A model generated the notes under the pieces. The model saw only the letters and a list, made by a program, of their open reading frames with translations. It searched no databases and was not told the DNA's origin. This document shows, piece after piece, positions 1,071 to 14,167 of a stretch of 25,623 nt of DNA. How positions within the stretch are numbered: position 1 is the stretch's first letter; each line of letters starts with the position of its first letter. The stretch covers positions 1 to 25,623 of the IMG/VR virus record IMGVR_UViG_3300033153_003488. One strand, given 5' to 3'. The position numbers and the translations under genes are program-made. The stretch is from a virus.

Positions 1071-1613
1071 ATGGCTGATACAGTATTAAAGTTGAATGTA
1101 GAGGCAGGAAAAGACTTTTTCCATGTTTACGATAGAACAGGAAAATACGGCAAGAAGAACAAGTGTGGTTGGGGCTCTCCTAACAAGGAGCTATCAGAAG
1201 TAAAAGAAGCAAAAGTTAAAGTTTATCTTCCTGGAGCAGACACATCTATTGATGTGGACGTCTATCCTTATTTACCAAATGACAAGTGTGTAGGGTATGA
1301 AATACTACCTCAAGATCTAGGGCTCGATATTTTCGATCCTGGAGTTTATAAGTTTGAGTTGGAGCTGTTGCTTCACAACGGGCTTACTATGTGTGATACT
1401 TGTTATACTTTTTTTTATCAACCATTGGAGTGCTGTATTAGTAAAAAGAAGATGGGAACTGATCTTAATGATGCCTCATCTGATAAAGCACTAAAAGTTC
1501 TTGAGCTAGAAACTCTTTTAAACAACGCTAGATGGTGCGCTCGTGCAGGAAAGATGGATTGTGCCCAAGATATTTCGGATTATATTTGGACTAACTGTGG
1601 CTGTTGCTGCTAA
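1071..1613 (+). CDS. Cys-rich phage structural protein, appendage cassette
   Basis: This is a 180-residue protein of unknown function. The first ~115 residues look beta-rich and end in a TCYTFFYQPLECC segment. The last ~50 residues look helical (a stretch with KVLELETLLNNARWC) and end in a striking CGCCC tail. It begins the series of small appendage genes, 10 bases ahead of the collagen-like gene. Its arrangement of a beta domain followed by a helical, Cys-bearing tail recurs in small virion proteins of Bacteroidota phages, but I cannot attach a named family. The cysteines may form disulfides in the particle or bind metal; this is inference. The start is chosen because an ATG lies shortly after an in-frame gap, with an A/T-rich leader as usual here. 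Confidence 0.75.
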   Translation: MADTVLKLNVEAGKDFFHVYDRTGKYGKKNKCGWGSPNKELSEVKEAKVKVYLPGADTSIDVDVYPYLPNDKCVGYEILPQDLGLDIFDPGVYKFELELLLHNGLTMCDTCYTFFYQPLECCISKKKMGTDLNDASSDKALKVLELETLLNNARWCARAGKMDCAQDISDYIWTNCGCCC

Positions 1614-1623
1614 ATAGAATATT

Positions 1624-2334
1624 ATGAGTGATTGTAAAGGTTGTAATGATGGTTGTAATGATTGCAAGAAGTCTTGCAATAGAGTCGTTATTGATAAGCG
1701 TGGCTTAATAGGCCCTCAAGGTCCCCCTGGAATTCCGGGCGAAAGAGGCTATCCTGGAGCGAACGGGACGAACGGTCAGGACGGGGCTTCTTATGTAAAC
1801 AAGGTTAATTCTTATACTGAAAATGAAGAAGACATCGAGGTAAAAGATATGGCTTCTCCTGATGTTTACGGTTTTCCGGGAACAACTTACAATTTACTTA
1901 CTTACACGAATAATACAGGGGCCACAAAGCCTTTTATTGTTCATGTATCGTATGATAAGTTTCCAGAATTCACAAATGAGAATAAAGGTTTCAACTGGGT
2001 TGACGGAGCTATTATAACAAACAACGGAGGTGGAGATGTTGTTGTGAAAGAGAATACCGACAAAATGAATTTGACGGTTAATATTTTTGACGGCGTGAAT
2101 TCTATCGATGTTGTTGATATAGGAGTCTCTACCGAAAAGGTTCAGACTACTCCTGGAGGAAATAATGTAGAGGCTCGCTTCTTAGATGTGGATGTACCTA
2201 TGAATGTTTCTTTTTTCGCAAAAGTATTCTTGGATGATGGAGAGTCTGTTTCTCTAAAATTCAAGACAAAAGATAATGCTACTGACTCTAGATTGGTTAG
2301 AGCTCAGATGTTTGTTAACGAATTAGATCAATAA
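1624..2334 (+). CDS. Collagen-like tail fibre protein with Cys-rich N-terminus (236 aa)
   Basis: Residues 1-19 carry six cysteines in a pattern CxxCNDGCNDCxxxC. Residues ~28-58 form a short Gly-X-Y collagen-like stretch (GPQGPPGIPGERGYPGANG). About 180 residues of probable beta-sandwich follow. Collagen-like repeats in phage proteins form trimeric fibre shafts, so this is probably a fibre subunit with an N-terminal attachment knob, a short triple-helical stalk and a globular tip. The next gene, three bases downstream, encodes a protein with the same Cys-rich start and a longer collagen stretch. This suggests duplicated fibre architecture or two fibres sharing one attachment site. Function in adsorption is inferred from the architecture and the neighbours. 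Confidence 0.8.
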   Translation: MSDCKGCNDGCNDCKKSCNRVVIDKRGLIGPQGPPGIPGERGYPGANGTNGQDGASYVNKVNSYTENEEDIEVKDMASPDVYGFPGTTYNLLTYTNNTGATKPFIVHVSYDKFPEFTNENKGFNWVDGAIITNNGGGDVVVKENTDKMNLTVNIFDGVNSIDVVDIGVSTEKVQTTPGGNNVEARFLDVDVPMNVSFFAKVFLDDGESVSLKFKTKDNATDSRLVRAQMFVNELDQ

Positions 2335-2336
2335 TT

Positions 2337-3317
2337 ATGATTAATTGCACAGATTGTAATGATGGCTGTTCAGGTTGTTCGGATTGTTTCGATAATGTAA
2401 CTATCCCGGCAGGACCTAAAGGTGATCAGGGGCCACAAGGTCCAGTAGGGGCGCAAGGTCCGACAGGTCAGAATGGTTCTTCTGCTTATGAAATATGGCT
2501 CTCTCTAGGAAATTCTGGTACAGAGCAGGATTTTATAGATTCCTTGAATGGCGATCCGGGGGCTCAAGGTGATCCGGGGGCTCAAGGCGATCCGGGAGCT
2601 CAAGGTGATCCGGGAGGTCAGGGGCCTCAAGGTGATGTTGGAGCTACAGGTGCTCCGGGCGACACTGGTGACACTGGTGACGCTGGATCAAAGATATACT
2701 TTACTTCAGGACCTCCGGGTGGTGGTTTAGGTGAGGATGATGATGTTGCTTATGACACTACTACAGCCTATCCTCAGACTGATATTTATCAAAAAGTAGG
2801 AGGAACTTGGCAGAATCAAGGCCGTTTTGGGAACGTTGTAAATCCTGGAACTCCGACTCCTAGCCCTACGTCATTCTTATTCAAAGCGAATAAGACCTCA
2901 GATCAATTCTTGGATGCAGGAACTAATGAGATGGTAGTCTTCTTTGAAGATGATATTACAGCTCCTACATATTTCGATAATGGAAATGTATGGTCAAGCT
3001 ATAACTTTAGGTGTGACCAAACGGTTACAAACGTAGAGTTCACGATGGAAGGGCTGGATTTGGCTAACTCTACAGGTGGAGCTATAACTGTTGATGTTGA
3101 TATTCGTCATCAAAGACCTCCTGCAACGGAAACGGTAAAGGCTACAGTAGCAATTGTCGTTCCTGCAACAGGGAATATTATAACTGCATTGCTTAAGACT
3201 CCTGCTCTTAATTTAGATGAAGGGGATATTGTTCGTGTTGTAGCTACTCCTCAAACGGGGAATGCTGGAGACGTTAAGGCTACGGCGGGAGAATTTTACA
3301 ATAACACAACACCATAA
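2337..3317 (+). CDS. Collagen-like tail fibre protein with Cys-rich N-terminus (326 aa)
   Basis: The N-terminus (MINCTDCNDGCSGCSDC) closely resembles that of the preceding fibre. Two collagen-like blocks follow, residues ~27-47 and ~72-116. They are separated by the segment SAYEIWLSLGNSGTEQDF, a motif I know from many collagen-like phage tail fibre proteins. The second block contains four nearly identical GDPGAQ hexapeptides encoded by an 18-bp DNA repeat. Residues ~180-326 look like a beta jelly-roll tip. The stop overlaps the start of the next gene by one base (TAATG), so the two are probably translationally coupled. Likely a trimeric receptor-binding fibre. The tip sequence gives no clue to its receptor. 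Confidence 0.85.
   Translation: MINCTDCNDGCSGCSDCFDNVTIPAGPKGDQGPQGPVGAQGPTGQNGSSAYEIWLSLGNSGTEQDFIDSLNGDPGAQGDPGAQGDPGAQGDPGGQGPQGDVGATGAPGDTGDTGDAGSKIYFTSGPPGGGLGEDDDVAYDTTTAYPQTDIYQKVGGTWQNQGRFGNVVNPGTPTPSPTSFLFKANKTSDQFLDAGTNEMVVFFEDDITAPTYFDNGNVWSSYNFRCDQTVTNVEFTMEGLDLANSTGGAITVDVDIRHQRPPATETVKATVAIVVPATGNIITALLKTPALNLDEGDIVRVVATPQTGNAGDVKATAGEFYNNTTP
2550..2621 (+). repeat. Four tandem 18-bp repeats inside collagen-like fibre gene
   Basis: Four in-frame copies of an 18-bp unit (consensus GGTGATCCGGGGGCTCAA) start at 2550, 2568, 2586 and 2604. The first three encode GDPGAQ and the fourth GDPGGQ. The copies differ by only a few bases, mainly silent (GGC/GGT, GGG/GGA). This indicates recent or ongoing expansion by slippage or recombination. 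Because the unit is a multiple of three, copy changes would lengthen or shorten the fibre shaft without breaking the frame. Confidence 0.9.
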
Positions 3318-3685
3318 TGTCAAAGCCATCTAATATATATAAATTCTTGGCCTACGCAAAGATCTGTAGTTGCAGACTTGCGTGTAAGTACGTTTCCAAA
3401 GTGAACTATGGAGAATGCGGGGAGGATTTGATGAATGAAATTAGATTGCTTAATAGCTACATTGAGGAGATTGAAGGATACATATATGCTTGTTGTAAAG
3501 ATTTTTACCGCAAAGGCGTTAAGTATTTTCATGGTGCTAAGATCATAATGTCTAAAAATAATTCGCTATATTTGACTTCAGAAGACGAGAAGATTAAGAT
3601 TGAGTCGTCAAGCCTAAATTGTTTGACAGAAGAGGAAATATGCGAACTAGCATCAAGAATTAGAAGAATTTGCATAAACTGTTAA
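3317..3685 (+). CDS. Small Cys-containing phage protein (122 aa), unknown
   Basis: This 122-residue protein has about twelve cysteines (ICSCRLAC near residue 20, ACC near residue 58, and CINC at the C-terminus). It looks mainly helical in its first half, with a short beta hairpin region around residues 75-97 and a final helix with LTEEEICELASRIRRIC. Its start overlaps the stop of the collagen-like fibre gene, and it lies 10 bases before another Cys-rich gene. The pattern of a helical N-terminal half followed by a CLTEEE helix is one I associate with small unnamed virion proteins of Bacteroidota phages. No function can be assigned. A role as fibre connector or assembly factor is guessed only from position. 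Confidence 0.7.
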   Translation: MSKPSNIYKFLAYAKICSCRLACKYVSKVNYGECGEDLMNEIRLLNSYIEEIEGYIYACCKDFYRKGVKYFHGAKIIMSKNNSLYLTSEDEKIKIESSSLNCLTEEEICELASRIRRICINC

Positions 3686-3695
3686 AAGAAACAAA

Positions 3696-4364
3696 ATGCC
3701 AACAGAATACGATAATCAAACGAGTTACACGAAGTTTCAATCTGACTGTAATTGCGGAGCGGAATCATCAAGTGATTGCACTTGTGGTTGCTCTACTGAT
3801 GAATGTAGCTGTTGTCCGATAGGGACGGTAGCTGTTTACAACGAAGACGGAACACATAAAGGGTGTTTAAGTCCAAATGATGCTGAGATATTCGAGGTCG
3901 GGACTCACGTTCCTACTACAGGTTACGTAAAAGTAATTGATTCGAATGGTAAGTATTATGGGGATATGTCTCCTTCTCAAGCTATTGAGTATTTGAACTT
4001 CATTGAGAATGGGATTGTGAATGGATCTACTGCTGCTTCATTTAATGTTGTTAGCCCTGAGGTTGGCGTTAGCGGGTTCTACGAACTTAGTTATCAATTG
4101 GCTGATGGCATTACTGATACTATAGGTCTTCAGATTGATAGAGTTGGTATTACTGACGCTGTTACTGTTTCTATTCAGAATTCAGCTCAGAACATTGAGT
4201 TCGATCCAAGTGGAACTGTATCTGTTATTCCATTGAACTTGAGTAGTTCTGATGTTAAATTCAAATGGACAGGTATTGCCGCACCGGGAGTTTATACATT
4301 TGATTTGAGATTCTTCGCGGCAGGAGTTGAGCAAATAGTACCAACAAGATTAACACTTACATAA
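3696..4364 (+). CDS. Cys-rich phage adhesin/structural protein (222 aa)
   Basis: Residues ~18-42 contain about ten cysteines in a compact cluster (CNCGAESSSDCTCGCS, then CSCCPIG). This is followed by a conserved-looking module around CCPIGTVAVYNEDGTHKGCL and SPNDAE, and by a paralogous-looking segment, VKVIDSNGKYYGDMSPSQA. I have an impression of this module in other Bacteroidota phage tail-region proteins, where it has no named function. Residues ~110-222 look like an Ig-like or beta-sandwich domain. The dense cysteines suggest disulfide stabilisation or metal binding at a fibre attachment end. The gene is one base from the next gene and clearly belongs to the appendage operon. Confidence 0.75.
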   Translation: MPTEYDNQTSYTKFQSDCNCGAESSSDCTCGCSTDECSCCPIGTVAVYNEDGTHKGCLSPNDAEIFEVGTHVPTTGYVKVIDSNGKYYGDMSPSQAIEYLNFIENGIVNGSTAASFNVVSPEVGVSGFYELSYQLADGITDTIGLQIDRVGITDAVTVSIQNSAQNIEFDPSGTVSVIPLNLSSSDVKFKWTGIAAPGVYTFDLRFFAAGVEQIVPTRLTLT

Positions 4365-4365
4365 G

Positions 4366-5166
4366 ATGATTGAAGTACAACATTTACATAGAAACCAAGT
4401 AACCACTCCGGCTCCGGGGCAATATTCATTGTTTTATGATTTGGATAATGGAGGTGTGCTTACTGCAAAAGACAACAATTGTGACTTTTATTCTTTGGAT
4501 GAATTACCTGAGATTGACACTACGAAGTTAGATGATTGTATTTGTGAAGTTACAAAGCAGATTGTTGATGATGCTGGTTGCGCTTTAAAGAAAGCAACAA
4601 TGGATGCGACTCAATATGAGTCAATCATTAACAATATTAATCTTTTCAGTAACGTAACTGTAGATCCTTCAACTGGAGGATATTCGCATTCAATTACGAC
4701 ATCTCCTACATTATTTGTAGCGCTCACTGTAACTAATGTCCTTTGTAATGGAGGATCGACAGGAACAGGTTCAGCAACGGTAACAGGAGGAGTCGGTCCT
4801 TATGTTCAAGCGTGGACTGATATGGCAGATGCTCCAGTGAATAACGCTGCATTGCCAGCAGGATCATTTAAGCTTACAGTTACGGATGCAAACGGAACTG
4901 TAAAAGTAATTACATTTATTGTAACTGAGCCATCAGCATTAGTGTTGCCAGCTCCAGTTGTTCAAGGAGCTTCTCCTGCGGCAACCGCCACTGCATTACC
5001 TTCAGGGGGTACATCTCCTTATACTTATGTATGGAAGGATAACGGAGGCGTTCCAATTGGACAGACGACTCAAACAGCTACAGCTCTTTCTACCGGGACT
5101 TACCAAGTGGAAGTTACGGATGCGAATGGTTGTACAATCGAAGATACTAACGTTGTAATATCATAG
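4366..5166 (+). CDS. SprB-like repeat phage protein (266 aa)
   Basis: Residues 1-~110 form an N-terminal domain with four cysteines (NCD, CIC, GC) that probably docks the protein on the virion. Residues ~118-192 and ~193-266 are two beta-sandwich repeats. They end in FKLTVTDANGTVKVITF and YQVEVTDANGCTIEDTNV, and contain GGVGPYVQAW and GGTSPYTYVW. This pattern (GG..PY.Y.W, then G.Y.V.VTDANGC) is the hallmark of SprB-type repeats in Bacteroidota cell-surface adhesins, including the Flavobacterium gliding adhesin SprB. I therefore read it as a virion adhesin built from a host-type module. Whether it binds host surface polymers is inference. Confidence 0.8.
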   Translation: MIEVQHLHRNQVTTPAPGQYSLFYDLDNGGVLTAKDNNCDFYSLDELPEIDTTKLDDCICEVTKQIVDDAGCALKKATMDATQYESIINNINLFSNVTVDPSTGGYSHSITTSPTLFVALTVTNVLCNGGSTGTGSATVTGGVGPYVQAWTDMADAPVNNAALPAGSFKLTVTDANGTVKVITFIVTEPSALVLPAPVVQGASPAATATALPSGGTSPYTYVWKDNGGVPIGQTTQTATALSTGTYQVEVTDANGCTIEDTNVVIS

Positions 5167-5170
5167 AAAT

Positions 5171-5806
5171 ATGTCGCAATTAAAAAAGTGGGAAATTGAA
5201 CAGACTGCAAATGGATTTAGGGCTAGAATTCTGAATCCAGCGCAACAACAGCCTTGGGAGTATTTTTTATGCTCGGCTGTCAAATCTGTTATTGGGATTG
5301 ACATCCCTAATTTCGGTTTGCGTAAAGCAGACAACCAAAGAAAAAATACTACTCGATATCTTGATAAAAGAGAGATCATTATTAGTTTTCATGACGAAAA
5401 CAATTCTGCTCCTTTTAGATATAACATTGAAGATGTTGATAATCAGCCTGGATGGACAAATGATCCGGCTGGACTAGAACAAGCTTTAGCAGATGTTATA
5501 TCTTGGTGTGCAAGTTCTGGATCAGTTTTGTCAGGGATTATCTCTGGAAACTCTGAGACTCCTTCAACTGTTGAGAATGCAGTGGGAGGCGCAGCAGGAT
5601 CTACAGCTTCAGGAGTAAAAGGTTTCTCGATTCAATTTGAAGGGGCTGGAGGAACTTTAGGAGGTGTGCCTGTGGATTCAGGTTACTCAACAGGAAAAGC
5701 AGCTTCATTAGGTAACACATTGCTTTCACAGGCCTATGTTGTCCCTAATGTTGCGGATGTAGCTTTTCCTAATTCGCCAAGAGTATTAATTGAATATGTT
5801 ACGTAA
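5171..5806 (+). CDS. Phage tail-region structural protein (211 aa), unknown
   Basis: The first ~125 residues look like a mixed alpha/beta domain (WEYFLCSAVKSVIGIDIPNF, then REIIISFHDENNSAPFRYN). Residues ~140-175 are a low-complexity Gly/Ala/Ser linker (VGGAAGSTASGVKG), and the C-terminal ~50 residues are short and beta-like. It follows the SprB-like gene after four bases, and its stop overlaps the next start (TAATG). No family is recognised. The domain-linker-tail build and location make it likely to be a baseplate or fibre-associated protein. A chaperone or adaptor for the neighbouring fibres is also possible. Confidence 0.65.
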   Translation: MSQLKKWEIEQTANGFRARILNPAQQQPWEYFLCSAVKSVIGIDIPNFGLRKADNQRKNTTRYLDKREIIISFHDENNSAPFRYNIEDVDNQPGWTNDPAGLEQALADVISWCASSGSVLSGIISGNSETPSTVENAVGGAAGSTASGVKGFSIQFEGAGGTLGGVPVDSGYSTGKAASLGNTLLSQAYVVPNVADVAFPNSPRVLIEYVT

Positions 5807-7068
5807 TGACTTTAGTAGTTCAAGAAAATAATAAGCCTCAAGGAGGTGGAGGTGCAGATACTAACACTTGGAATGTTCCGGGTGTAGCTTTCGTTTCTGA
5901 TTCAGGTGATAACGGTACGGCTTCTGTTGGCGATGGTAACTTACCATACGCCACTGTTGCTGCGGCTCATGCTGCTAGTTCGTTGGTTTTCATTTTGCCG
6001 GGAACATACACTGAAGCTATCGCATTGAAATCTGGAATTACATATTACAGTTATCCGGGAGTGCTATTTACGAATGGTGGTATCACTATGGCTGAAACTT
6101 GTGTTGATACACATTGGTTAGGTCATGCTTCGTTTATTGGTGCGTTCTTCCCGTTGTTGTTATTGCAGGATTTCACAAACTTCATTTTCGAATGGGATGA
6201 GATAGATGCTACATCATGTGCTTTCCGACCTACAAATTCAGGAAATTCTACTTTCACATTAAAAGGTAGAAAGATGGAGCACTCAGCAACATTGGGAGCT
6301 GCCTTTTCTTTTGGGAATCAATTATCTGGAACTGTAACTATAGATGAACCAGTAAAAGCTCATTATGGAGTGTTTACGGCTGAAGCTACTTACACGTTGG
6401 ATGGGAATATAGAGTTCAATTGCGACATGGTTTGCGAGGATGGTGGAGTTGGAGGTAATAACGCTGCTCTCAAGCAGTGTTTCTTAGCTTACGGTATGAC
6501 TGCAACTTCTAAGGTTACTATCAATGGTGATCTTTATATGGATGAGATATCAGTTCCTTTAGCGAGTTTAACTGCTGCGATTTCCTTGAATTCTGGATGC
6601 TTAGGTAGTGTTGTTCATAACGGTAATGTTTATGGTGGAGAGCAGCGTCCCTTAAGAAATGATGGGGCTGGAACTGTAACCATGAACGGATCTTCAATTA
6701 CGGAGAACAGCATTTTTGATACTACAGACGGACAGCTTGTATTGAATCATGGTACTTTGGTCCAGGAGCAAGCTAATTCAATTACTGGTACGGCTAGTGT
6801 TTGGATTCAGCATTGTGAAATACATTCAAGCTCTACAGACAATGTTATTGATTATACTACGGCTACTGGTCAGCTTATCATAAATGACACGAATGCTGAA
6901 GGCAGTACTGGAGAGTTTGTGAACACTGGAGGAGCTGCGAATGCTGTAGGTATGAAGAATGTTTATTCGAATTTAGCGAATGATGGAGCTATGACTAATT
7001 TCTATGCGACTGCGCCTTTAGGGTTCACTCAGGAAGCGAATGTTAAGACTCCTAATTTTATATCATGA
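5806..7068 (+). CDS. Beta-helix tailspike-like protein (420 aa)
   Basis: A short disordered N-terminus includes a Gly run (PQGGGGAD). It is followed by a segment typical of the start of right-handed parallel beta-helix proteins: a DSGDNGTASVGDGNLPYATV segment, then FILPGTYTEAI. The rest (~70-400) is a long array of short beta strands with repeated Asn, Gly and Thr turns, as in pectin-lyase-fold phage tailspikes. Such proteins bind, and often cleave, surface polysaccharide. I cannot identify catalytic residues, so enzymatic activity is open. Starts and stops overlap both neighbours (TAATG upstream, ATGA downstream), and the SGNH hydrolase follows directly. This hints at joint action on host glycans. 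Confidence 0.75.
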   Translation: MTLVVQENNKPQGGGGADTNTWNVPGVAFVSDSGDNGTASVGDGNLPYATVAAAHAASSLVFILPGTYTEAIALKSGITYYSYPGVLFTNGGITMAETCVDTHWLGHASFIGAFFPLLLLQDFTNFIFEWDEIDATSCAFRPTNSGNSTFTLKGRKMEHSATLGAAFSFGNQLSGTVTIDEPVKAHYGVFTAEATYTLDGNIEFNCDMVCEDGGVGGNNAALKQCFLAYGMTATSKVTINGDLYMDEISVPLASLTAAISLNSGCLGSVVHNGNVYGGEQRPLRNDGAGTVTMNGSSITENSIFDTTDGQLVLNHGTLVQEQANSITGTASVWIQHCEIHSSSTDNVIDYTTATGQLIINDTNAEGSTGEFVNTGGAANAVGMKNVYSNLANDGAMTNFYATAPLGFTQEANVKTPNFIS

Positions 7069-7742
7069 AAAACTTAAAGCTTGCAATCATGTCTGTTGTA
7101 TTTATGCTTATGGGGATGCCGGGTTACGTTTCTTGCGTGAAGCAGGAGATAGTTGAGCCGGATAGAAAGATTGTGATCGTGGGTGACTCTATGGTTAAAA
7201 CTATTGATGGACAGTTATCAGGAGAACCTTCTACATGGGAGGCTGAACTTGGTATGTCAGATATTGATAATCAAGGGTACAATGGTATTGTCATACAGCA
7301 AGTGGCTCAGTACGGCCCTTTAACTTGGACTATTGCGGCTAATCCTGAGTTGGTGTATATCGCTGCTGGGATAAATGACGCTATACAAGGAGTGAGTGTT
7401 GCTACGAGTATTGCTCACATGACTACAATTTGTAATCAATTGACATCAAACGGAATTCCTTTTGTTATTACATTGCCTGCGCCTGTGGTGCATGACTATA
7501 CTTATAATAATGTTCCTGCTCCGGGGATACGTGATAACCGAGAAGCTTTAAATGCCGCCTTGGTTAATCTTTGCGTATCAAACGGATACCGATACATGGA
7601 TCTGGAGCCTTGGCTAGGAGAGAGACATTCTGATGGGCATGTATACTTAAAGGATGAATACACAGTTGATGGAGTTCATTTAAACAACGCTGGTTATAAG
7701 TGTTGGGCCATGTATATGTCTTATGACATAAATCAGCATTAG
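7065..7742 (+). CDS. SGNH/GDSL-family hydrolase with lipoprotein-type signal peptide
   Basis: All four SGNH blocks are visible: nucleophile Ser42 in IVGDSM, Gly71 in NQGYNG, Asn104 in AAGINDA, and the Asp202/His205 pair in DGVHLNNAGY. This family cleaves ester bonds, often acetyl groups on polysaccharides or lipids. The length (225 residues) fits a single catalytic domain. The first 24 residues are a basic start (MKNLK), a hydrophobic stretch and a cysteine in GYVSC, resembling a Bacteroidota lipoprotein signal. That would send the enzyme to the envelope rather than the virion. Its start overlaps the tailspike stop (ATGA), so the two are probably coupled. Likely substrates are acylated host surface glycans. 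The signal sequence could alternatively be a vestige of gene transfer. Confidence 0.85.
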   Translation: MKNLKLAIMSVVFMLMGMPGYVSCVKQEIVEPDRKIVIVGDSMVKTIDGQLSGEPSTWEAELGMSDIDNQGYNGIVIQQVAQYGPLTWTIAANPELVYIAAGINDAIQGVSVATSIAHMTTICNQLTSNGIPFVITLPAPVVHDYTYNNVPAPGIRDNREALNAALVNLCVSNGYRYMDLEPWLGERHSDGHVYLKDEYTVDGVHLNNAGYKCWAMYMSYDINQH

Positions 7743-7771: not shown

Positions 7772-8086
7772 TTGAAAACAAAAACAGTAGGGCCGTTAGA
7801 CTTAAAGACTTCTCAGAAGTCTGATACTGTGCTTATTGATAGTACAGGACCTATTTCTATACAGCCTGTTGTTGAGAATCTTTGTGGATCTCCAGCATAT
7901 ACCTTAGAATCTTCCAATGACAAAGAGAACTTTGTTGCCTACGATCCTTTATCTACGGATGTATCTTTAGAAGACTCAATTCAAATTAATTACGAGAAAA
8001 TCCCATGGAAGTACATGCGTATTTCTGTTGCTTCTAGAACAGGAGATTCTGGATTGGCTAGTTTTATCTTCGTGTACAATGGGTAA
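7772..8086 (+). CDS. Small virion-type protein (104 aa); TTG start or frameshifted from ATG at 7750
   Basis: This frame encodes about 104 residues of probable beta-sandwich (SDTVLIDSTGPISIQPV, then WKYMRISVASRTG). The only start codon in frame after the last stop is TTG at 7772, with ATA also in frame at 7754, which is unusual here. In another frame, an ATG at 7750 with a normal-looking leader gives 24 residues before TGA at 7822. A +1 shift between about 7772 and 7820 would join it to this frame. The natural gene may therefore start at 7750 with a shift, either programmed or a sequence error. The C-terminus overlaps the next gene by eight bases. It is probably a small fibre or baseplate protein; no family is recognised. 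Confidence 0.6.
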   Translation: MKTKTVGPLDLKTSQKSDTVLIDSTGPISIQPVVENLCGSPAYTLESSNDKENFVAYDPLSTDVSLEDSIQINYEKIPWKYMRISVASRTGDSGLASFIFVYNG

Positions 8087-8762
8087 AGTAATTCAAATAC
8101 CGGGACCTGTACAGATTTTAACTGTAGCTGATCATAGTCAGTTGAATCTCGATGACGGAACTAATCCTCACGGCACTACAAAGGCTGATGTTGGTCTTGG
8201 GAATGTCGATAATACAAGTGACTTAAACAAGCCGATTTCTACAGCTACGCAAACAGCTTTAAATGGAAAAGAGAACGATCTTGGAAATCCTGCATCGAAT
8301 GGATATATTCTTTCGTCAACAATTGGTGGTGTTCGTTCATGGGTTGTTCCTCCGAGCGCATCATTTATTGATTATACATCTAGAGATACGACAACGATAT
8401 CAACGTTTTCTACAACTGGGGTTACTCATTCGAATTTCGTTCAGGCTGGACTAGATAATTCAAAAACATACATTGTGGATTGTTTCTTGATATGGTCGCA
8501 TGATGCTACTTCGAGTGATGCTTTCTTTGAGTTTAGAAACTTTGCGGTAAATATTTTGAGTGAAAGATTGCAGATAGAACCTAAAGACTCTTCTGGCGCT
8601 GGGCCTGGAGGCACTAATCAAAGGATCGATATGTTCCTAAGCGGGGAGACTACTCCTACGGCTGGACAGATTCAATTAGATCTTTTATTTGGAACTTCAA
8701 ATGCAGCTCAGGAAACTACTATTTATGAGGTGAGATTTTCTATTCGTGAAAAACAAGTATAA
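8079..8762 (+). CDS. Phage tail fibre protein with LGNVDNTSD-type motif (227 aa)
   Basis: I place the start at ATG 8079 (MGKVIQIPGP) rather than further upstream, because the upstream extension would lie inside the preceding gene in another frame. Residues ~38-65 contain a segment beginning KADVGLGNVDNTSDLNKP, followed by ISTATQTALNGKEND. This is a very common tail fibre motif in phages and prophages, usually just before the receptor-binding tip. Residues ~95-227 look like a beta jelly-roll (SFIDYTSRDTTTISTF to YEVRFSIREKQV). The gene overlaps its upstream neighbour by eight bases and its downstream neighbour by one. Role: host recognition, well supported by the motif. Confidence 0.85.
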   Translation: MGKVIQIPGPVQILTVADHSQLNLDDGTNPHGTTKADVGLGNVDNTSDLNKPISTATQTALNGKENDLGNPASNGYILSSTIGGVRSWVVPPSASFIDYTSRDTTTISTFSTTGVTHSNFVQAGLDNSKTYIVDCFLIWSHDATSSDAFFEFRNFAVNILSERLQIEPKDSSGAGPGGTNQRIDMFLSGETTPTAGQIQLDLLFGTSNAAQETTIYEVRFSIREKQV

Positions 8763-10204
8763 TGGCAACAGTAACTAAAAATATAGCGAGTATTAATTTT
8801 CGTAGATTCATCGAAGAGTTGAAGGCTAGTTCGTTTTCAGCTAAGTATGTCACTATTGAGAAGTATTTTTATGATGGGGCAGACGTTGGGGATATTATAA
8901 TAGAGTTAACATCTGCTTTAACGGGGCCTGAAGATGCTGATCTTGATGCTATTATATTGGCTCACGACCCCACTCCTGATCCTGCTATTCCAGATTATGC
9001 TGGATTAGAGAATAGGATTATTGTAAATCAAGAAAATGTAGCAACAACGTTGGGTGGTATTATCGATTCATCTAAAGAATACTTTTTAGACGGTGTTATA
9101 GATATGAGCGGCGTTACTGTTGAAGTTCCAGCGGGAGGAATCAATATAAAAGGCTTCGATTTTGATGTGTCTAAAATGATTTGTAGCGACCCGAATTACA
9201 CTATGTTTACTTCTGCTGTTGGCGGTAGTGGCAATGTTTTAGGTATTGATTACGCAATTGAAGTAACTGGCTCTAGCTCAAAGGTTTATGCGCTTGAATC
9301 CGCTACAGGTTTTGACGCTTTTGAGTTTTCGAGAATTAACTATAATAATTGCTCTTCTCTTGGTTATATTGACGGGTATAGACAAGGGCTAGAAAGCGGA
9401 ACGGGTCGCTTTGGAGGCTCCCCCTCTTTGGAATTCCGGGGAAGCTGGAACGGTTTTAGGGTTACAACTTCTATCGTTAGGGTGTTATCGGCCTCAATGA
9501 CTGAGCCACTATTTAAGGCGGGAGCCGGTTTTTTAATGTCTAATCGTTTTTTAACGGATATTAATTGCGACCTACCAACAAGCGCGGCTTTTTGCGATTT
9601 CTCAGCGGCTAATTTTTCTAATCCTTCAACGCTTCAAGTTCATGGCGCTATATTCACGCGCAACGGAACTTCTAATGCTGAGGATACTAATATATTTAGC
9701 AATATAGCTAAAAGTGAATTGCCAAGCGATTTTAAACGTAATCAAGGTGTTAGCAACACTTTTGTTGGGGGCGTTAATACTGTTACAGGAGAAATACAAA
9801 CAATAATATCAAGCTCCGGCACGTTTGAAACTATGGACGGAACATTTACACCGTCAGATATGGAACATTTTGACTCCCCTTCAAATGGTAAGTTGAGGCA
9901 TTTAGGGAACAATCCTCGTGAGTTTCGCGTTGTAGCTGATCTGACTGTCGATGGAAACCCTGACAGAGAGCTAACGGCTCGTGTAAAGAGGTGGGATGAT
10001 TCTTCAAGCTCTTTTATCACGGTTTTTGACCAGAGGCGACAAGTCAACTCTCTTGTTAGAGGGAGAGATGTTGCGTTTTTTAGTATCTACACTCATGTAA
10101 CACTTGATAAAAACGACTATGTTTTTTTAGAAGTAGCTAACAATACAGATTCAACAAATGTAACTTTAGAGGCTTCAAGTTTTTTGGATATAGAACAGCG
10201 TTAA
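8762..10204 (+). CDS. Large tail fibre/spike protein (480 aa)
   Basis: The N-terminal ~80 residues (INFRRFIEELKASSFSAKY) probably form a helical attachment region. After a proline-rich linker (HDPTPDPAIPDY), residues ~100-330 have the strand-turn rhythm of a parallel beta-helix (IDMSGVTVEVPAGGINIKGF). Residues ~345-480 look like a jelly-roll tip (REFRVVADLTVDGNPD, then VTLDKNDYVFLEVANNTD). This is the last gene of the appendage operon and the largest complete fibre in the window. The middle part uses AGC, GGC and GCG codons noticeably more than the rest, suggesting replacement of the central domain by recombination. A receptor-binding or glycan-binding role is inferred; no catalytic residues are evident. 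Confidence 0.75.
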   Translation: MATVTKNIASINFRRFIEELKASSFSAKYVTIEKYFYDGADVGDIIIELTSALTGPEDADLDAIILAHDPTPDPAIPDYAGLENRIIVNQENVATTLGGIIDSSKEYFLDGVIDMSGVTVEVPAGGINIKGFDFDVSKMICSDPNYTMFTSAVGGSGNVLGIDYAIEVTGSSSKVYALESATGFDAFEFSRINYNNCSSLGYIDGYRQGLESGTGRFGGSPSLEFRGSWNGFRVTTSIVRVLSASMTEPLFKAGAGFLMSNRFLTDINCDLPTSAAFCDFSAANFSNPSTLQVHGAIFTRNGTSNAEDTNIFSNIAKSELPSDFKRNQGVSNTFVGGVNTVTGEIQTIISSSGTFETMDGTFTPSDMEHFDSPSNGKLRHLGNNPREFRVVADLTVDGNPDRELTARVKRWDDSSSSFITVFDQRRQVNSLVRGRDVAFFSIYTHVTLDKNDYVFLEVANNTDSTNVTLEASSFLDIEQR

Positions 10205-10295: not shown

Positions 10296-10312
10296 CAAAA
10301 AAAAATAGAGTG

Positions 10313-10528
10313 ATGAAGGAAACATTGGAATTAATACACAAGTACGGAGTCTCAGCTATATTGTTTATATGGTTAAGTGTACTTCAGGTTCAATTTAACA
10401 ATGCTCAAGATCGTTTATTTGATTGCTATGATGAAAGAATAGAAGAGTCTAAGTTTGCAGATGATCAGGCTGAATCTTTAAGGTGGTATGCGATACTTCC
10501 TAAGGAAACAAAAATTAAAAATTCATGA
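10313..10528 (+). CDS. Small membrane protein, holin-region (71 aa)
   Basis: A single hydrophobic segment lies near the N-terminus (VSAILFIWLSVLQVQF), followed by a charged soluble tail (NNAQDRLFDCYDERIEESKF). ATG at 10313 is preferred; a GTG three bases earlier is also possible. The gene overlaps the next small membrane gene (ATGA) and lies upstream of the endolysin. Small single- or double-pass proteins in this position are often holins or holin regulators. I recognise no named family, so the lysis role rests on topology and location. Confidence 0.65.
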   Translation: MKETLELIHKYGVSAILFIWLSVLQVQFNNAQDRLFDCYDERIEESKFADDQAESLRWYAILPKETKIKNS

Positions 10529-10713
10529 CTACTCCACCTTTAAAACCTAGTAAATTTAACATCTTACTTATTGCAATTAAGGCTATCTCTGGTATCGCCG
10601 GAGGCGCGATGATTCTTACGGAAAACCATCCGTATATCAGTTTAGCTATCCTAGCTCTTGGAGCTGCTGCAAACGAAGTTCAGGCTTACATCAAGACTTA
10701 CACTGGTAAGTGA
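10525..10713 (+). CDS. Small two-segment membrane protein, holin candidate (62 aa)
   Basis: There are two hydrophobic stretches (residues ~12-31, NILLIAIKAISGIAGGAM, and ~36-52, YISLAILALGAAANEV). They are separated by a short polar turn and followed by a short basic C-terminus (YIKTYTGK). Size and topology match small holins, which permeabilise the inner membrane to release endolysin. It is coupled to the preceding gene by an ATGA overlap, and the endolysin gene follows after 67 bases. It is the better holin candidate of the pair, but the assignment is by topology and context only. Confidence 0.65.
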   Translation: MTTPPLKPSKFNILLIAIKAISGIAGGAMILTENHPYISLAILALGAAANEVQAYIKTYTGK

Positions 10714-10750
10714 TGCTCTTCTGTCTTACAGGCTTTTAGATTAAAAACAC

Positions 10751-10758
10751 TATATTTG
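10751..10758 (+). promoter_or_regulatory. Promoter -7 element for endolysin gene
   Basis: TATATTTG exactly matches the Bacteroidota -7 consensus TAnnTTTG and lies 22 bases upstream of the endolysin ATG, in the only sizeable gap of the lysis cassette. The -33 region is not a clear match. It may allow endolysin expression independent of the long appendage transcript. Confidence 0.5.
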
Positions 10759-10780
10759 ATGTAGACAAAAACAGTAAAAG

Positions 10781-11632
10781 ATGGCGCAGAACAAGAGTAT
10801 TATAGTAAAAAGAGGAGATTACGGATCGCATATTATTGAGATCCAGAAAGGATTAAAGGCATCGGGTTTTTGGCCCTCTCTTGTTCCTTATTCAAAAAAT
10901 TTCGGCCCTACAACGGATAAGTGTGTTAGGTCGTATCAAAAAGCTAAAGGTCTTGTTGTTGACGGAAAGGTAGGCTCTGAGACACTTAAAGCATTAGGTG
11001 TGCATATTACTGTTCATACAGACTCATCTTTTGATGAGAAGTATAAAGGGGTAGTTATTCAAGGATCAGTTTTCCCGGATAAACCTATCAAGAACAATGT
11101 TAGAGTTCGATTGAACAAAGAGATTGTTAACGAGTATATTCCTGAAATGAAATCGGTAATGTCTGACAAACCTAGAGGTTTCCAATTGTTGATCACTATT
11201 ATGGCTTACAAGGAAGGCTTTCGTAATGGCACTCGTTCTTACAGAACAAACAATCCGGGAAACATCGGTAATACTGATTCAGGAGCTAACAAGCATAACG
11301 GGACGCTTAAGAGCGGAATTATGCTTCAAAGGGATTACATCACCAAAATAGCAAAAGGAAAGCACAGAGCGTACCCTATGGGTAAAACTAAGCTTATTAA
11401 GCCTTACTTCTCAAAAGAGATCGCAAAGCATTCTAAGCTTTACGGTATGAGTCCTTATGTGCCAGGGTACGAATTTGTATTTACAGGGCAATTGGATCAG
11501 TTCGTAAAGATTTATGCGACAGGTGCAAGAGCGGGGAATAGCTATTTATCTATGATCATCTCTTATTTTAAAGCAAATGGAATTGAAATAAACGCTCAGA
11601 GTAAGATTCAGGATATTATTAAAATGAGATAG
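10781..11632 (+). CDS. Endolysin: peptidoglycan-binding domain plus lysozyme-like catalytic domain
   Basis: Residues ~8-72 are a PG_binding_1-type domain (KRGDYGSHIIEIQKGL, AVRSYQ-like core CVRSYQKAKGLVVDGKVG). These domains grip peptidoglycan. After a linker, residues ~125-270 form the putative catalytic domain with FQLLITIMAYKEGFRNG, where Glu145 is a plausible catalytic acid, followed by RTNNPGNIGNTDSG. The latter motif resembles phage lysozyme/transglycosylase-like enzymes. There is no signal peptide, so export would depend on a holin, and two candidates lie directly upstream. The spanin-like gene follows after two bases. Muralytic function is well supported by architecture and context. 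The exact bond cleaved is not certain. Confidence 0.85.
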   Translation: MAQNKSIIVKRGDYGSHIIEIQKGLKASGFWPSLVPYSKNFGPTTDKCVRSYQKAKGLVVDGKVGSETLKALGVHITVHTDSSFDEKYKGVVIQGSVFPDKPIKNNVRVRLNKEIVNEYIPEMKSVMSDKPRGFQLLITIMAYKEGFRNGTRSYRTNNPGNIGNTDSGANKHNGTLKSGIMLQRDYITKIAKGKHRAYPMGKTKLIKPYFSKEIAKHSKLYGMSPYVPGYEFVFTGQLDQFVKIYATGARAGNSYLSMIISYFKANGIEINAQSKIQDIIKMR

Positions 11633-11634
11633 TT

Positions 11635-12063
11635 ATGAAGTACTTGTATTTAATCCTTTTGATATCATTAACAGCTTGTAGCCCTGTAAAGAGGCTTAAT
11701 AGGCTTATTGATAAGCATCCTGAATTAATTCGTACTGAAACGGTAACTATAAGGGATACTGTTGAAGTGGTTGTTCCAGAGGTGAAGCATGATACCATGT
11801 TCTTAGAGAAGAGCCTTCATGACACTGTATTCATTCAGAAGGATCGATTAAAGATTAAGATCTGGAAGGTTAGTGACACGATCCGTGTAGAAGGGGAGTG
11901 TGAAACCGATACTATAAGGTTGGTCCGGGAAATAGAAGTTCCTGTAAAGTATTACAAAGATGATTATAAATGGTGGCACAAGATCCCTTGGTGGGTTTAT
12001 TTCCTTATCTTCGGTACTGGAGGCTACTTTTTGTATGTCAAATTCAAACATTTAATAAAATAG
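11635..12063 (+). CDS. Probable unimolecular spanin (lipoprotein with C-terminal membrane anchor)
   Basis: Residues 1-15 are a lipoprotein signal with a lipobox (LTAC, lipidated Cys15), which should anchor the N-terminus in the outer membrane. Residues ~118-135 are a transmembrane segment (WWVYFLIFGTGGYFLYVK) with a basic end, for the inner membrane. The periplasmic part carries five DT(V/M/I) units (at Asp41, 53, 63, 81 and 92), suggesting extended beta structure. A single protein spanning both membranes is the layout of u-spanins such as T1 gp11, which fuse the membranes in the last step of lysis. It directly follows the endolysin gene. The role is inferred from topology and position, not sequence homology. 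Confidence 0.75.
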   Translation: MKYLYLILLISLTACSPVKRLNRLIDKHPELIRTETVTIRDTVEVVVPEVKHDTMFLEKSLHDTVFIQKDRLKIKIWKVSDTIRVEGECETDTIRLVREIEVPVKYYKDDYKWWHKIPWWVYFLIFGTGGYFLYVKFKHLIK

Positions 12064-12358: not shown

Positions 12359-12772
12359 CTAGAATGGAGAGTCGTCGTCTTCTTCTTTTTCAGTATCATC
12401 CTCAACCTTTTGTTCGATTGATTCTTCTACCTCTTCAGTTGTTACACTCTTGAAGCCATCATCAACTGCTGTTGAATTAATGCTTTCTGGAGCTTCTACG
12501 ACTTTCTTTCCTGTGAGTGGTTTTTCTGGAACATGAATCTCAATGGTCTTATCTTCAAAGTTGAACTTTCCTTCAAGCTTATGCTTATTGAAGAACATGA
12601 ACATCTTTTCAATGTTTACATTTAACCCATTTCCTGTAGATCCAATATCGAAGTTTTTAATCTGAGCTTCGATATTCAGGTTCATCAGTTCACAAACGCG
12701 TGTAAAGACTTCTTTCCTAGCCTTTACATCGTTTGATTTGAACGTTAGAGTTTTCATTTTAACTTCTGACAT
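12359..12772 (-). CDS. Phage protein with SSB-type acidic C-terminal tip (137 aa)
   Basis: The first ~90 residues form a small folded domain (MKTLTFKSNDVKARKEVF, then KLEGKFNFEDKTIEIHVPEK) that I cannot assign. Residues ~100-137 are a long acidic disordered tail ending in DDDSPF. This is the form of the conserved tip of bacterial single-stranded DNA-binding proteins, which recruits replication and repair partners. It follows the OB-fold-like protein after nine bases on the same strand, and that protein also ends in such a tip. It is therefore probably a DNA-binding or replication-accessory partner. A second start six residues in (MKTLTF) is possible. It is the last gene of the early operon. 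Confidence 0.7.
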   Translation of the reverse strand: MSEVKMKTLTFKSNDVKARKEVFTRVCELMNLNIEAQIKNFDIGSTGNGLNVNIEKMFMFFNKHKLEGKFNFEDKTIEIHVPEKPLTGKKVVEAPESINSTAVDDGFKSVTTEEVEESIEQKVEDDTEKEEDDDSPF

Positions 12773-12781
12773 GGCCTAGTA

Positions 12782-13291
12782 TTAGAATGGCATATCATCG
12801 TTTTCATCCGCTTCAGTCTCAGGTGTAGCCGCTTCAGCAACAGTACTCTGTTCTACTAATGGGGTAGATGCTACGGATCCTGTACCTAAGGGTTCAACAT
12901 TTGAATTAACAAGAACATCCCATCCGTGATAATCTCTACCTCCAGATTTGTGTTTTTGAATTCCTTGCCATACAACTTTAATGTATTGACCTGGAACGAT
13001 CTTCTTTGCGATTAGGCTGTTAAGAACACCTGTACCCCATACGTTTACTTTTCCAGATGGATCAGCATCACCTACCAAGTGGGCTTGATTCCCAACTTTG
13101 TCCACCTTGATCTCATGGATAATTGAGTTGTTGTCTCCAACTCCAGTTTGACACCCTAAGTAGTATCCTACTATCCAAGAGTCATCTCCAGGCTGAAGAG
13201 CTTGAAGGTTATTAGTTTTTGAAGAACCAGTTTGTTTTGGTTCCCATGTTTGTCCTGAGCCTTTTACTGACTCGAATCCGTCATTTGACAT
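12782..13291 (-). CDS. Probable single-stranded DNA-binding protein (OB-fold-like, 169 aa)
   Basis: Residues ~30-130 have a strand pattern fitting an OB fold (WIVGYYLGCQTG, KVNVWGTGVLNSLI, YIKVVWQGIQKHKSGGRDYH). The G-x-x-Y-H ending is common in phage single-stranded DNA-binding proteins. A disordered Ala/Glu/Thr-rich tail ends in ENDDMPF, the classic SSB tip that binds partner proteins. Its neighbours are the replication genes upstream and a second acidic-tip protein downstream. The role would be to coat single-stranded DNA during replication and recombination. The tip is direct evidence. The fold is a reading of the sequence and has not been confirmed by structure prediction. Confidence 0.75.
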   Translation of the reverse strand: MSNDGFESVKGSGQTWEPKQTGSSKTNNLQALQPGDDSWIVGYYLGCQTGVGDNNSIIHEIKVDKVGNQAHLVGDADPSGKVNVWGTGVLNSLIAKKIVPGQYIKVVWQGIQKHKSGGRDYHGWDVLVNSNVEPLGTGSVASTPLVEQSTVAEAATPETEADENDDMPF

Positions 13292-13402: not shown

Positions 13403-14167
13403 TTATTGAGGTATTGGACCTGTCAAGATACTACCAATCCCTCCGGCTCCTCCAGCGGCAGTTCCGCCAGTGTTGATTCCACCGCCACCAAGAGGTCGTT
13501 GCTTTTTCCTTTTGTGAAAACCACGTAGCTTATCAGCGTATTTACCTGAAATATCGTTATCATGTACATCATATCCTACCATACAGATAGTCGATGAATA
13601 TTCGTCAGGCATTGCGTTATAGAATTTAACTCCTAATGCTCCAGATTGATCTCTTAATTCATCAACAATGACATAGCCTGTAGCGTGTCCATTTGCCCAA
13701 TCAGGGAAGTTGTCCATAAATCTTACAATGTCAGGATTTACTGCTGTTTCTGTGGTTGCTACCGCACCGCTGGATGTGGATTTGTAAACAACTAAGTTCG
13801 ATATTGTAGTATCAACTATGGGACACAACACATGATAGCCATTGTTTTCTGAATCAATAGCATAGTAAATAGCCATACCAGTGCATTCTTCAGGAGAGAA
13901 TAATGTATCTAAGATTGCATCACTTACTTGAAATGAAGCAGGCCAGTTTGGATGATCTGCCTGAAAGTTTGCTGTAAGAGTATCGAACTCAGTGAAGGTA
14001 ATTTCATCACCTACATACTCATCAAAAGGACTAGAGCTTCTAGCGTTTGAAATGTCATTGATGGAATGGGTAGGTTTTGTGGATCCTAATTCCTTTTCAC
14101 ATGAAGTGAAAGTGATTGTCGCTATCATCGTTAGCAGCATAAATAGAAAATTGTAATTTTTCATCAT
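13403..14167 (-). CDS. Phage-encoded lipoprotein (254 aa), unknown role
   Basis: Residues 1-23 are a lipoprotein signal: basic start (MMKNYN), hydrophobic core, and TFTSC with the lipidation site at Cys23. The mature part has an acidic flexible region, a globular middle (residues ~50-220, with a NFPDWANGHATGYVIVD segment), a basic patch (FHKRKKQRP) and a Gly-rich tail (GGGGINTGGTAAGG). No known domain is recognised. It stands between early-gene unknowns and the SSB-like pair and has its own terminator. Lipoproteins in early phage regions sometimes block superinfection by altering the receptor or DNA entry. That is a plausible but unproven role. Its start could also be the second Met. Confidence 0.75.
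   Translation of the reverse strand: MMKNYNFLFMLLTMIATITFTSCEKELGSTKPTHSINDISNARSSSPFDEYVGDEITFTEFDTLTANFQADHPNWPASFQVSDAILDTLFSPEECTGMAIYYAIDSENNGYHVLCPIVDTTISNLVVYKSTSSGAVATTETAVNPDIVRFMDNFPDWANGHATGYVIVDELRDQSGALGVKFYNAMPDEYSSTICMVGYDVHDNDISGKYADKLRGFHKRKKQRPLGGGGINTGGTAAGGAGGIGSILTGPIPQ

Follow-up and report, generated by a model that had tools for sequence, protein, structure and literature searches.

Phage SGNH enzymes are known as parts of the virion, which strip acetyl groups during entry. SGNH folds also comprise lipases and thioesterases, which counts against reading the substrate of the hydrolase described below from its fold. The AT3 acyltransferases form a family that O-acylates glycans.

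In a study on Klebsiella, esterase activity was found for two phage receptor-binding proteins that bear SGNH domains, and changes of acetylation are discussed with regard to competition between phages; its main text does not contain the term "signal peptide" (PMC13123978). A phage product of a different kind is Llp of T5, a superinfection-exclusion lipoprotein (PMC9586334).

Here, we analysed an SGNH hydrolase encoded on a virus record of 25.6 kb (IMGVR_UViG_3300033153_003488), whose complete stretch of 25,623 nucleotides is named the window in the following. With the tail-fibre SGNH deacetylases (G7C gp63.1; Klebsiella prophage receptor-binding proteins, PMC13123978), the window enzyme has in common the SGNH chemistry and the link to receptor binding. 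However, those enzymes are domains of virion proteins, i.e. parts of large proteins having no signal, whereas the window SGNH is a standalone protein of 225 residues with an export signal and does not have this form. Secreted GDSL/SGNH esterases of Bacteroidota (e.g. Phocaeicola vulgatus sialate O-acetylesterase, 7pzg, 6njc; BF3764, 4ppy) possess the same fold and the same catalytic blocks; compared to these, the window SGNH is phage-encoded within a tail/lysis operon, the sequence identity is 18-23%, and the substrate is deduced from the fold. The likeness to T5 Llp (PMC9586334) concerns location and effect: Llp is a phage-encoded, periplasm-facing lipoprotein of the outer membrane, which is the location proposed for the window SGNH, and the effect proposed for the latter is that virions no longer adsorb to infected cells and debris. 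In contrast, Llp is a small protein which blocks FhuA by binding and is not an enzyme; no sequence relation between the two is claimed. Finally, the AT3 surface-acylation genes of phages (e.g. Vibrio phage ZF14_PE001) alter the acylation of host surface glycans, as is proposed for the window SGNH; an AT3 gene is present there, whereas none was found in the window.

Coding sequence, catalytic residues and fold

Table 1. Features of the SGNH gene and of its surroundings in the window
Feature	Position	Strand	Basis
N-terminal signal MKNLKLAIMSVVFMLMGMPGYVSC, putative lipobox YVSC, C24 = +1	7065..7136	+	sequence; lipoprotein rule; pLDDT <50 for residues 1-23
In-frame GTG immediately 3' of the codon for the lipobox Cys; speculatively, an alternative start that would yield a protein without signal	7137..7139	+	
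SGNH hydrolase, 225 aa, probably exported esterase	7065..7742	+	PF13472, PF00657, PHROG 14008/6102, AlphaFold model and PDB matches
SGNH block I, GDS, catalytic Ser42	7182..7190	+	alignments
SGNH block III, GIND, Asn104	7368..7379	+	alignments
SGNH block V, DGVH, Asp202 and His205	7668..7679	+	invariant in alignment
Probable beta-helix tailspike; stop overlaps SGNH start (ATGA); homologue directly 5' of the SGNH in locus L103	5806..7068	+	
Small protein 3' of the SGNH gene, in the fibre region; no family matches	7772..8086	+	
Tail fibre protein with common phage fibre repeat GLGNVDNTSDLNKP	8028..8762	+	PHROG tail fibre families, best 3.8e-18
Probable receptor-binding protein; residues ~82-480 widespread among marine phages	8762..10204	+	PHROG 16509, E 1e-118
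Lysis cassette: two small membrane proteins (holin candidates), endolysin 10781-11632, lipoprotein 11635-12063	10310..12063	+	

The product of 7065-7742 matched PF13472 with 63.6 bits (cut-off 32.9; residues 39-212) and PF00657 with 32.2 bits. Its PHROG matches were 14008 and 6102; the best one, 14008 (2.7e-10), is a family of unknown function (234 aa) with about 60 profile positions ahead of the SGNH core. An NCBIfam search gave no family match. In the alignment with relatives, GDS42, G71, G102-I-N104-D105, and D202-x-x-H205 are largely conserved, and the AlphaFold model, which was built from 19 sequences, has a pLDDT of 86.7. The residues of blocks I-III and V combined with the flavodoxin-like alpha/beta fold place the protein in the SGNH/GDSL superfamily. 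A first interpretation, made from the sequence alone and named the sequence-only reading below, had claimed an SGNH enzyme with all catalytic blocks; the ORF, the PF13472 match, and residues S42, G71, N104, D202, and H205 confirm this. The product is very probably an active esterase.

The top matches of the model among solved structures were SGNH/GDSL esterases, with Z values of 22-23 over ~175-181 residues and 18-23% identity: the Bacteroidota GDSL proteins BF3764, BACUNI_03406, BT0569, and BDI_0976, as well as the sialate O-acetylesterase of P. vulgatus. TesA and PAF-acetylhydrolase rank below these enzymes (Z ~18). Because the nearest structures are of this type, a carbohydrate O-acetyl esterase is the leading but unproven candidate activity, and the enzyme more likely than not acts on an O-acylated glycan.

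The probable N-terminal export signal

The N-terminus of the window SGNH reads MKNLKLAIMSVVFMLMGMPGYVSC followed by VKQEIVEPDRKIVIVGDS, with the boundary after C24; n-, h-, and c-regions are all present, and a simple lipoprotein-signal rule is passed. This rule is loose and asks for Sec-type n- and h-regions, then a small residue and Cys. Because only 7 of 3381 internal Met positions (0.2%; ORFs of the Bacteroidota group) pass the same rule, the signal is not ascribed to chance, and export of the protein is considered probable. Lipidation on C24 is likely but not certain: Tyr at position -3 is not a usual lipobox residue and occurs in none of the 27 lipoprotein-like ORFs selected by the same rule. 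Due to this atypical residue, the protein may instead be cut by signal peptidase I or stay anchored uncleaved. The lipoprotein-type signal originally proposed thus stands with respect to the rule, whereas lipidation falls short of being established. The start context of GTG 7137 offered no supporting features.

In Capnocytophaga, the minimal motif for surface export, located directly behind the Cys, is either K-(D/E)2 or Q-A-(D/E)2, and surface export is poor if K is accompanied by one acid only (PMC5080379). The window sequence CVKQEI, with K at +3 and one acid at +5, lacks this motif, which makes surface exposure doubtful, although the signal of the window host may differ. If the host obeys the Capnocytophaga rule, a lipidated SGNH would probably face the periplasm rather than being displayed on the surface.

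Two further window proteins pass the lipoprotein rule. These are 11635-12063 (LTAC), which has a C-terminal transmembrane segment and is u-spanin-like, and 13403-14167 on the minus strand (FTSC). The latter, a 254-aa protein with no family match located between the lysis and replication blocks, is a second candidate envelope protein.

Genomic context

The ATG of the SGNH gene overlaps the tailspike stop exactly (ATGA), which had been taken as translational coupling. The overlap is real, but the gene pairs 2337/3317 and 5171/5806 of this operon share such an overlap, so that coupling does not set the tailspike/SGNH pair apart. RNA folding at the tailspike/SGNH junction showed nothing notable (z -0.06). 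The structure model of 5806-7068 consists of beta-strand repeats (pLDDT 69), and the fold search gave weak beta-helix matches, none of them significant; its assignment as a tailspike is likely but not proven. A domain search detected no SGNH domain in this protein. Neither an acyltransferase (AT3 included) nor a capsule gene nor a known receptor was found in the window, and a scan of window genes revealed no integrase. A BT4734-like primase domain and an SprB repeat were found; the known distributions of these two families point to a Bacteroidota host. Lysis genes comparable to the window cassette are present in the loci L097-L102.

Several observations concern neighbouring genes. For the C-terminal part of 8762-10204 (residues ~82-480), counterparts at 47-70% exist in 56 viral loci and in Pseudoalteromonas phages; since no other window protein matched those 56 loci, this part seems to be a strongly exchanged module. 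Several consecutive tail-region proteins in 1071-4364 have Cys-rich stretches near one end (CKGCNDGCNDCKKSC, CTDCNDGCSGCSDC, CNCGAESSSDCTCGCSTDECSCC, CGCCC), which may be a motif common to these proteins, for attachment or metal binding. The adjacent minus-strand proteins 12359-12772 and 12782-13291 carry the acidic C-terminal tails DDDSPF and DDMPF; such tails resemble those of single-strand DNA-binding proteins.

Close relatives and the fate of the signal

Single-query scans of viral contigs with the window SGNH or the tailspike, and of genome contigs with the SGNH, gave no relatives, and the window gene at 1071 as query gave nothing. The tailspike had no match among phage records; it also had none in 395 Bacteroidota-group genomes, a search without positive control which is not informative.

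The only other tailspike-SGNH pair found is that of L103, where a tailspike homologue (39-48%) is directly followed by an SGNH gene (34% identity). This SGNH has no signal in any frame; its N-terminus is MVNKELIGIFNPPSFNAKEGLNMPNRKIVILGDS, and MPNRKIVILGDS aligns with EPDRKIVIVGDS of the window protein, i.e. its start corresponds to residue ~31 of the latter. According to the sequence-only reading, homologues without the signal and starting near residue 30 would refute an envelope-anchored enzyme, and L103 contains precisely such a protein. A frameshift interrupts the tailspike gene of L103, which is why this contig may contain errors. A 15-bp hairpin (1556-1605, z -3.9) lies over the inner ATG of the L103 SGNH and possibly controls translation; further perfect inverted repeats (arms of at least 13, short loop) were not found at this locus.

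On the question whether relatives keep the signal, which had been raised together with the original proposal, the answer is divided: L066 and L067 (contigs of 169 and 313 kb) retain the signal MKHITVIIFVIMSLFSCQKQNIQ with the lipobox LFSC and then KQxI, as in the window, whereas L103 is without it. Block III of the L066 protein (4016-4729) is GMYD and not GxND, so that this relative with a signal may have lost its oxyanion Asn. A further close relative (L068/L100; 40% over the C-terminal half) has its N-terminus beyond the contig edge; its gene is followed by those of a membrane protein, a spanin-like lipoprotein, and an endolysin. In the tree, the proteins of the window, L103, and L068 are grouped (100/95), L066 lies outside (100/96), and all are apart from cellular enzymes. 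Most of the nearest cellular relatives from the Bacteroidota group are exported. As this is the case, loss of the signal in L103 would be the simplest account, although the sequences number only four.

The endolysin was used as a synteny anchor to find six related loci. Only one of them (L100) has an SGNH; L097 and L099 carry the same genes, and several loci are incomplete. The SGNH gene is patchy among the endolysin-matched relatives.

Standalone SGNH proteins of other phages

Viral standalone SGNHs were gathered by homology regardless of position and characterized by their maximal 14-residue hydropathy (KD14). Most of them possess a signal, a lipobox, or a membrane anchor; KD14 is between 1.9 and 3.15 in 14 cases, the exceptions being L103 (0.27) and two cyanophage proteins (1.2 and 1.7). 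For SGNH domains inside larger proteins (348-1305 aa), KD14 is at most 1.17 (eight rows, L064 and L080 being one and the same protein).

The exported SGNH adjoins fibre/spike or other tail genes in L069, L071, L072, L073, L075, and L076, and is within one gene of such genes in L081. L073 is an E. coli P22-like prophage copy (683R2), which was counted with caution, as the phage record and RefSeq place the start downstream of the signal-like segment; the copy occurs in 31 of 5426 complete genomes. In L072 (2266-4501), a fibre-like protein whose C-terminus carries an SGNH domain (PF13472, 66.7 bits) is directly followed by an exported or membrane-anchored SGNH, 27% identical to it. The gene order in L076 is fibre, exported SGNH (LAGC), small membrane proteins, endolysin; here, the fibre gave a sub-threshold SGNH match (23.3 bits). 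In L060 and L070, the exported SGNH lies beside AT3 acyltransferases. The pattern is not followed by L066, L079, the copy in Vibrio phage PE002A, and Acinetobacter phage 5W, whose SGNH gene adjoins the tape-measure gene. The placement of exported SGNHs beside fibre genes in unrelated phages is a lead and not a statistic, since the base rate is assumed: a rough binomial (7/13, p ~1e-4) was set aside, as it presumed a base rate of 10% and "beside" was judged by eye.

Interpretation

The tentative explanation that we favour is an exported, probably lipid-anchored glycan O-acetylesterase, which would modify the surface polysaccharide of the host late in infection. The enzyme would be made in a Bacteroidota host together with the tail and lysis proteins; the Sec signal would take it out of the cytoplasm, and it would probably be lipidated on C24, anchored in the outer membrane, and face mainly the periplasm. 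There, it would strip O-acyl (probably O-acetyl) groups off the envelope polysaccharide matching the receptor of the neighbouring spike. Infected cells and debris would then bind progeny or rival virions less well, which would be a function like that of T5 Llp, exerted by an enzyme.

Export is supported by the signal being above background, by the lipobox kept in L066/L067, and by the split between standalone proteins and SGNH domains; to this extent the envelope-anchored enzyme of the sequence-only reading is backed, whereas its exposure at the surface is made doubtful by CVKQEI. The link to receptor binding gains support from the recurrence of exported SGNHs beside fibre/spike genes and from the L072 pair. 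This agrees with the earlier notion of a matched pair of binder and receptor modifier, although the L103 pair, having no signal, disagrees; a role of the window SGNH in receptor modification is possible but somewhat less likely than not. The AT3 pairing in L060/L070, the structural proximity to secreted Bacteroides GDSL esterases, the export of most of the nearest cellular relatives, and the two other lipoprotein-like proteins of the phage also favour our explanation. It is weakened by the signal-less pair of L103, by the atypical Tyr at -3 and the weak surface-export motif, and by the presence of an SGNH in only one of six endolysin-matched loci. The same is true for the missing acyltransferase, capsule gene, and known receptor in the window, and for the tailspike having no SGNH domain.

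The main rival, which we regard as rather unlikely, is a virion-borne SGNH, i.e. a tail component that de-O-acetylates the host glycan together with the tailspike during adsorption. The N-terminal segment would then be a hydrophobic adaptor or a relic, or it would be bypassed by an internal start such as GTG 7137. The L103 pair, which is kept without a signal and starts where the core of the window SGNH starts, fits this arrangement, as do the location of the gene between spike and fibre genes and the frequency of SGNH domains in virion and receptor-binding proteins (PMC13123978). However, a product with a good signal would enter the Sec pathway instead, L066 has kept both lipobox and signal, the 225 residues comprise no virion-attachment domain, and GTG 7137 has no start-context support.

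Less probable is a helper in lysis: a periplasmic lipase/lysophospholipase or peptidoglycan O-acetylesterase would dismantle the envelope together with endolysin and spanin. The SGNH gene and the lysis cassette, which follows 2.6 kb downstream, belong to one co-directed block, L076 has a comparable order of genes, the fold is common to TesA and PatB, and a periplasmic facing would fit; but most endolysin-matched relatives have no SGNH gene, those of L103 and L066 are not beside lysis genes in the stretches seen, and TesA-like structures rank under the Bacteroides GDSL enzymes and the sialate O-acetylesterase.

Still lower we place a general moron, i.e. a host-derived exported esterase with some other benefit (host nutrition, glycan scavenging), for which the side of the tailspike would be an ordinary insertion site. 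The recurrence of exported SGNHs next to fibre/spike genes of unrelated phages and retention of the same tailspike-SGNH pair in L103 at 34% SGNH identity argue against it, whereas the exported enzymes among most close cellular relatives, the patchy occurrence of the gene, and the copies of L066 and Vibrio phage PE002A away from fibre genes are in its favour. A nonfunctional signal or a misplaced start, leaving a cytoplasmic SGNH without a dedicated envelope role, agrees with the atypical lipobox and the signal-less L103 protein but is very improbable, as the ATG overlaps the upstream stop exactly and n-, h-, and c-regions are all present at a background rate of 0.2%.

Implications

Returning to the exported envelope esterase, the locus hints at a virus that chemically alters the surface of its host, but the nearest relative with the same gene pair is without the export signal, which weakens this reading. 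A wider claim, to which we give a low probability, is that unrelated phages repeatedly put an exported standalone SGNH beside a receptor-binding gene, in some cases beside a fibre with an SGNH domain of its own, so as to modify the receptor glycan on infected cells. By analogy, and no less speculatively, such exported SGNHs might be an enzymatic counterpart of T5 Llp, like a viral receptor-destroying enzyme acting from inside the envelope.

If true, SGNH chemistry would be put to a different use by a class of exported enzymes that are encoded next to the spike and produced in the course of infection: the host surface would be changed from within, freeing progeny or shutting out rivals. The signal-less L103 pair offers a natural comparison for the exported window SGNH. 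A testable prediction would follow for a set of unrelated phages, the E. coli prophage copy included, and some of the "lipase" genes now filed as morons might be explained.
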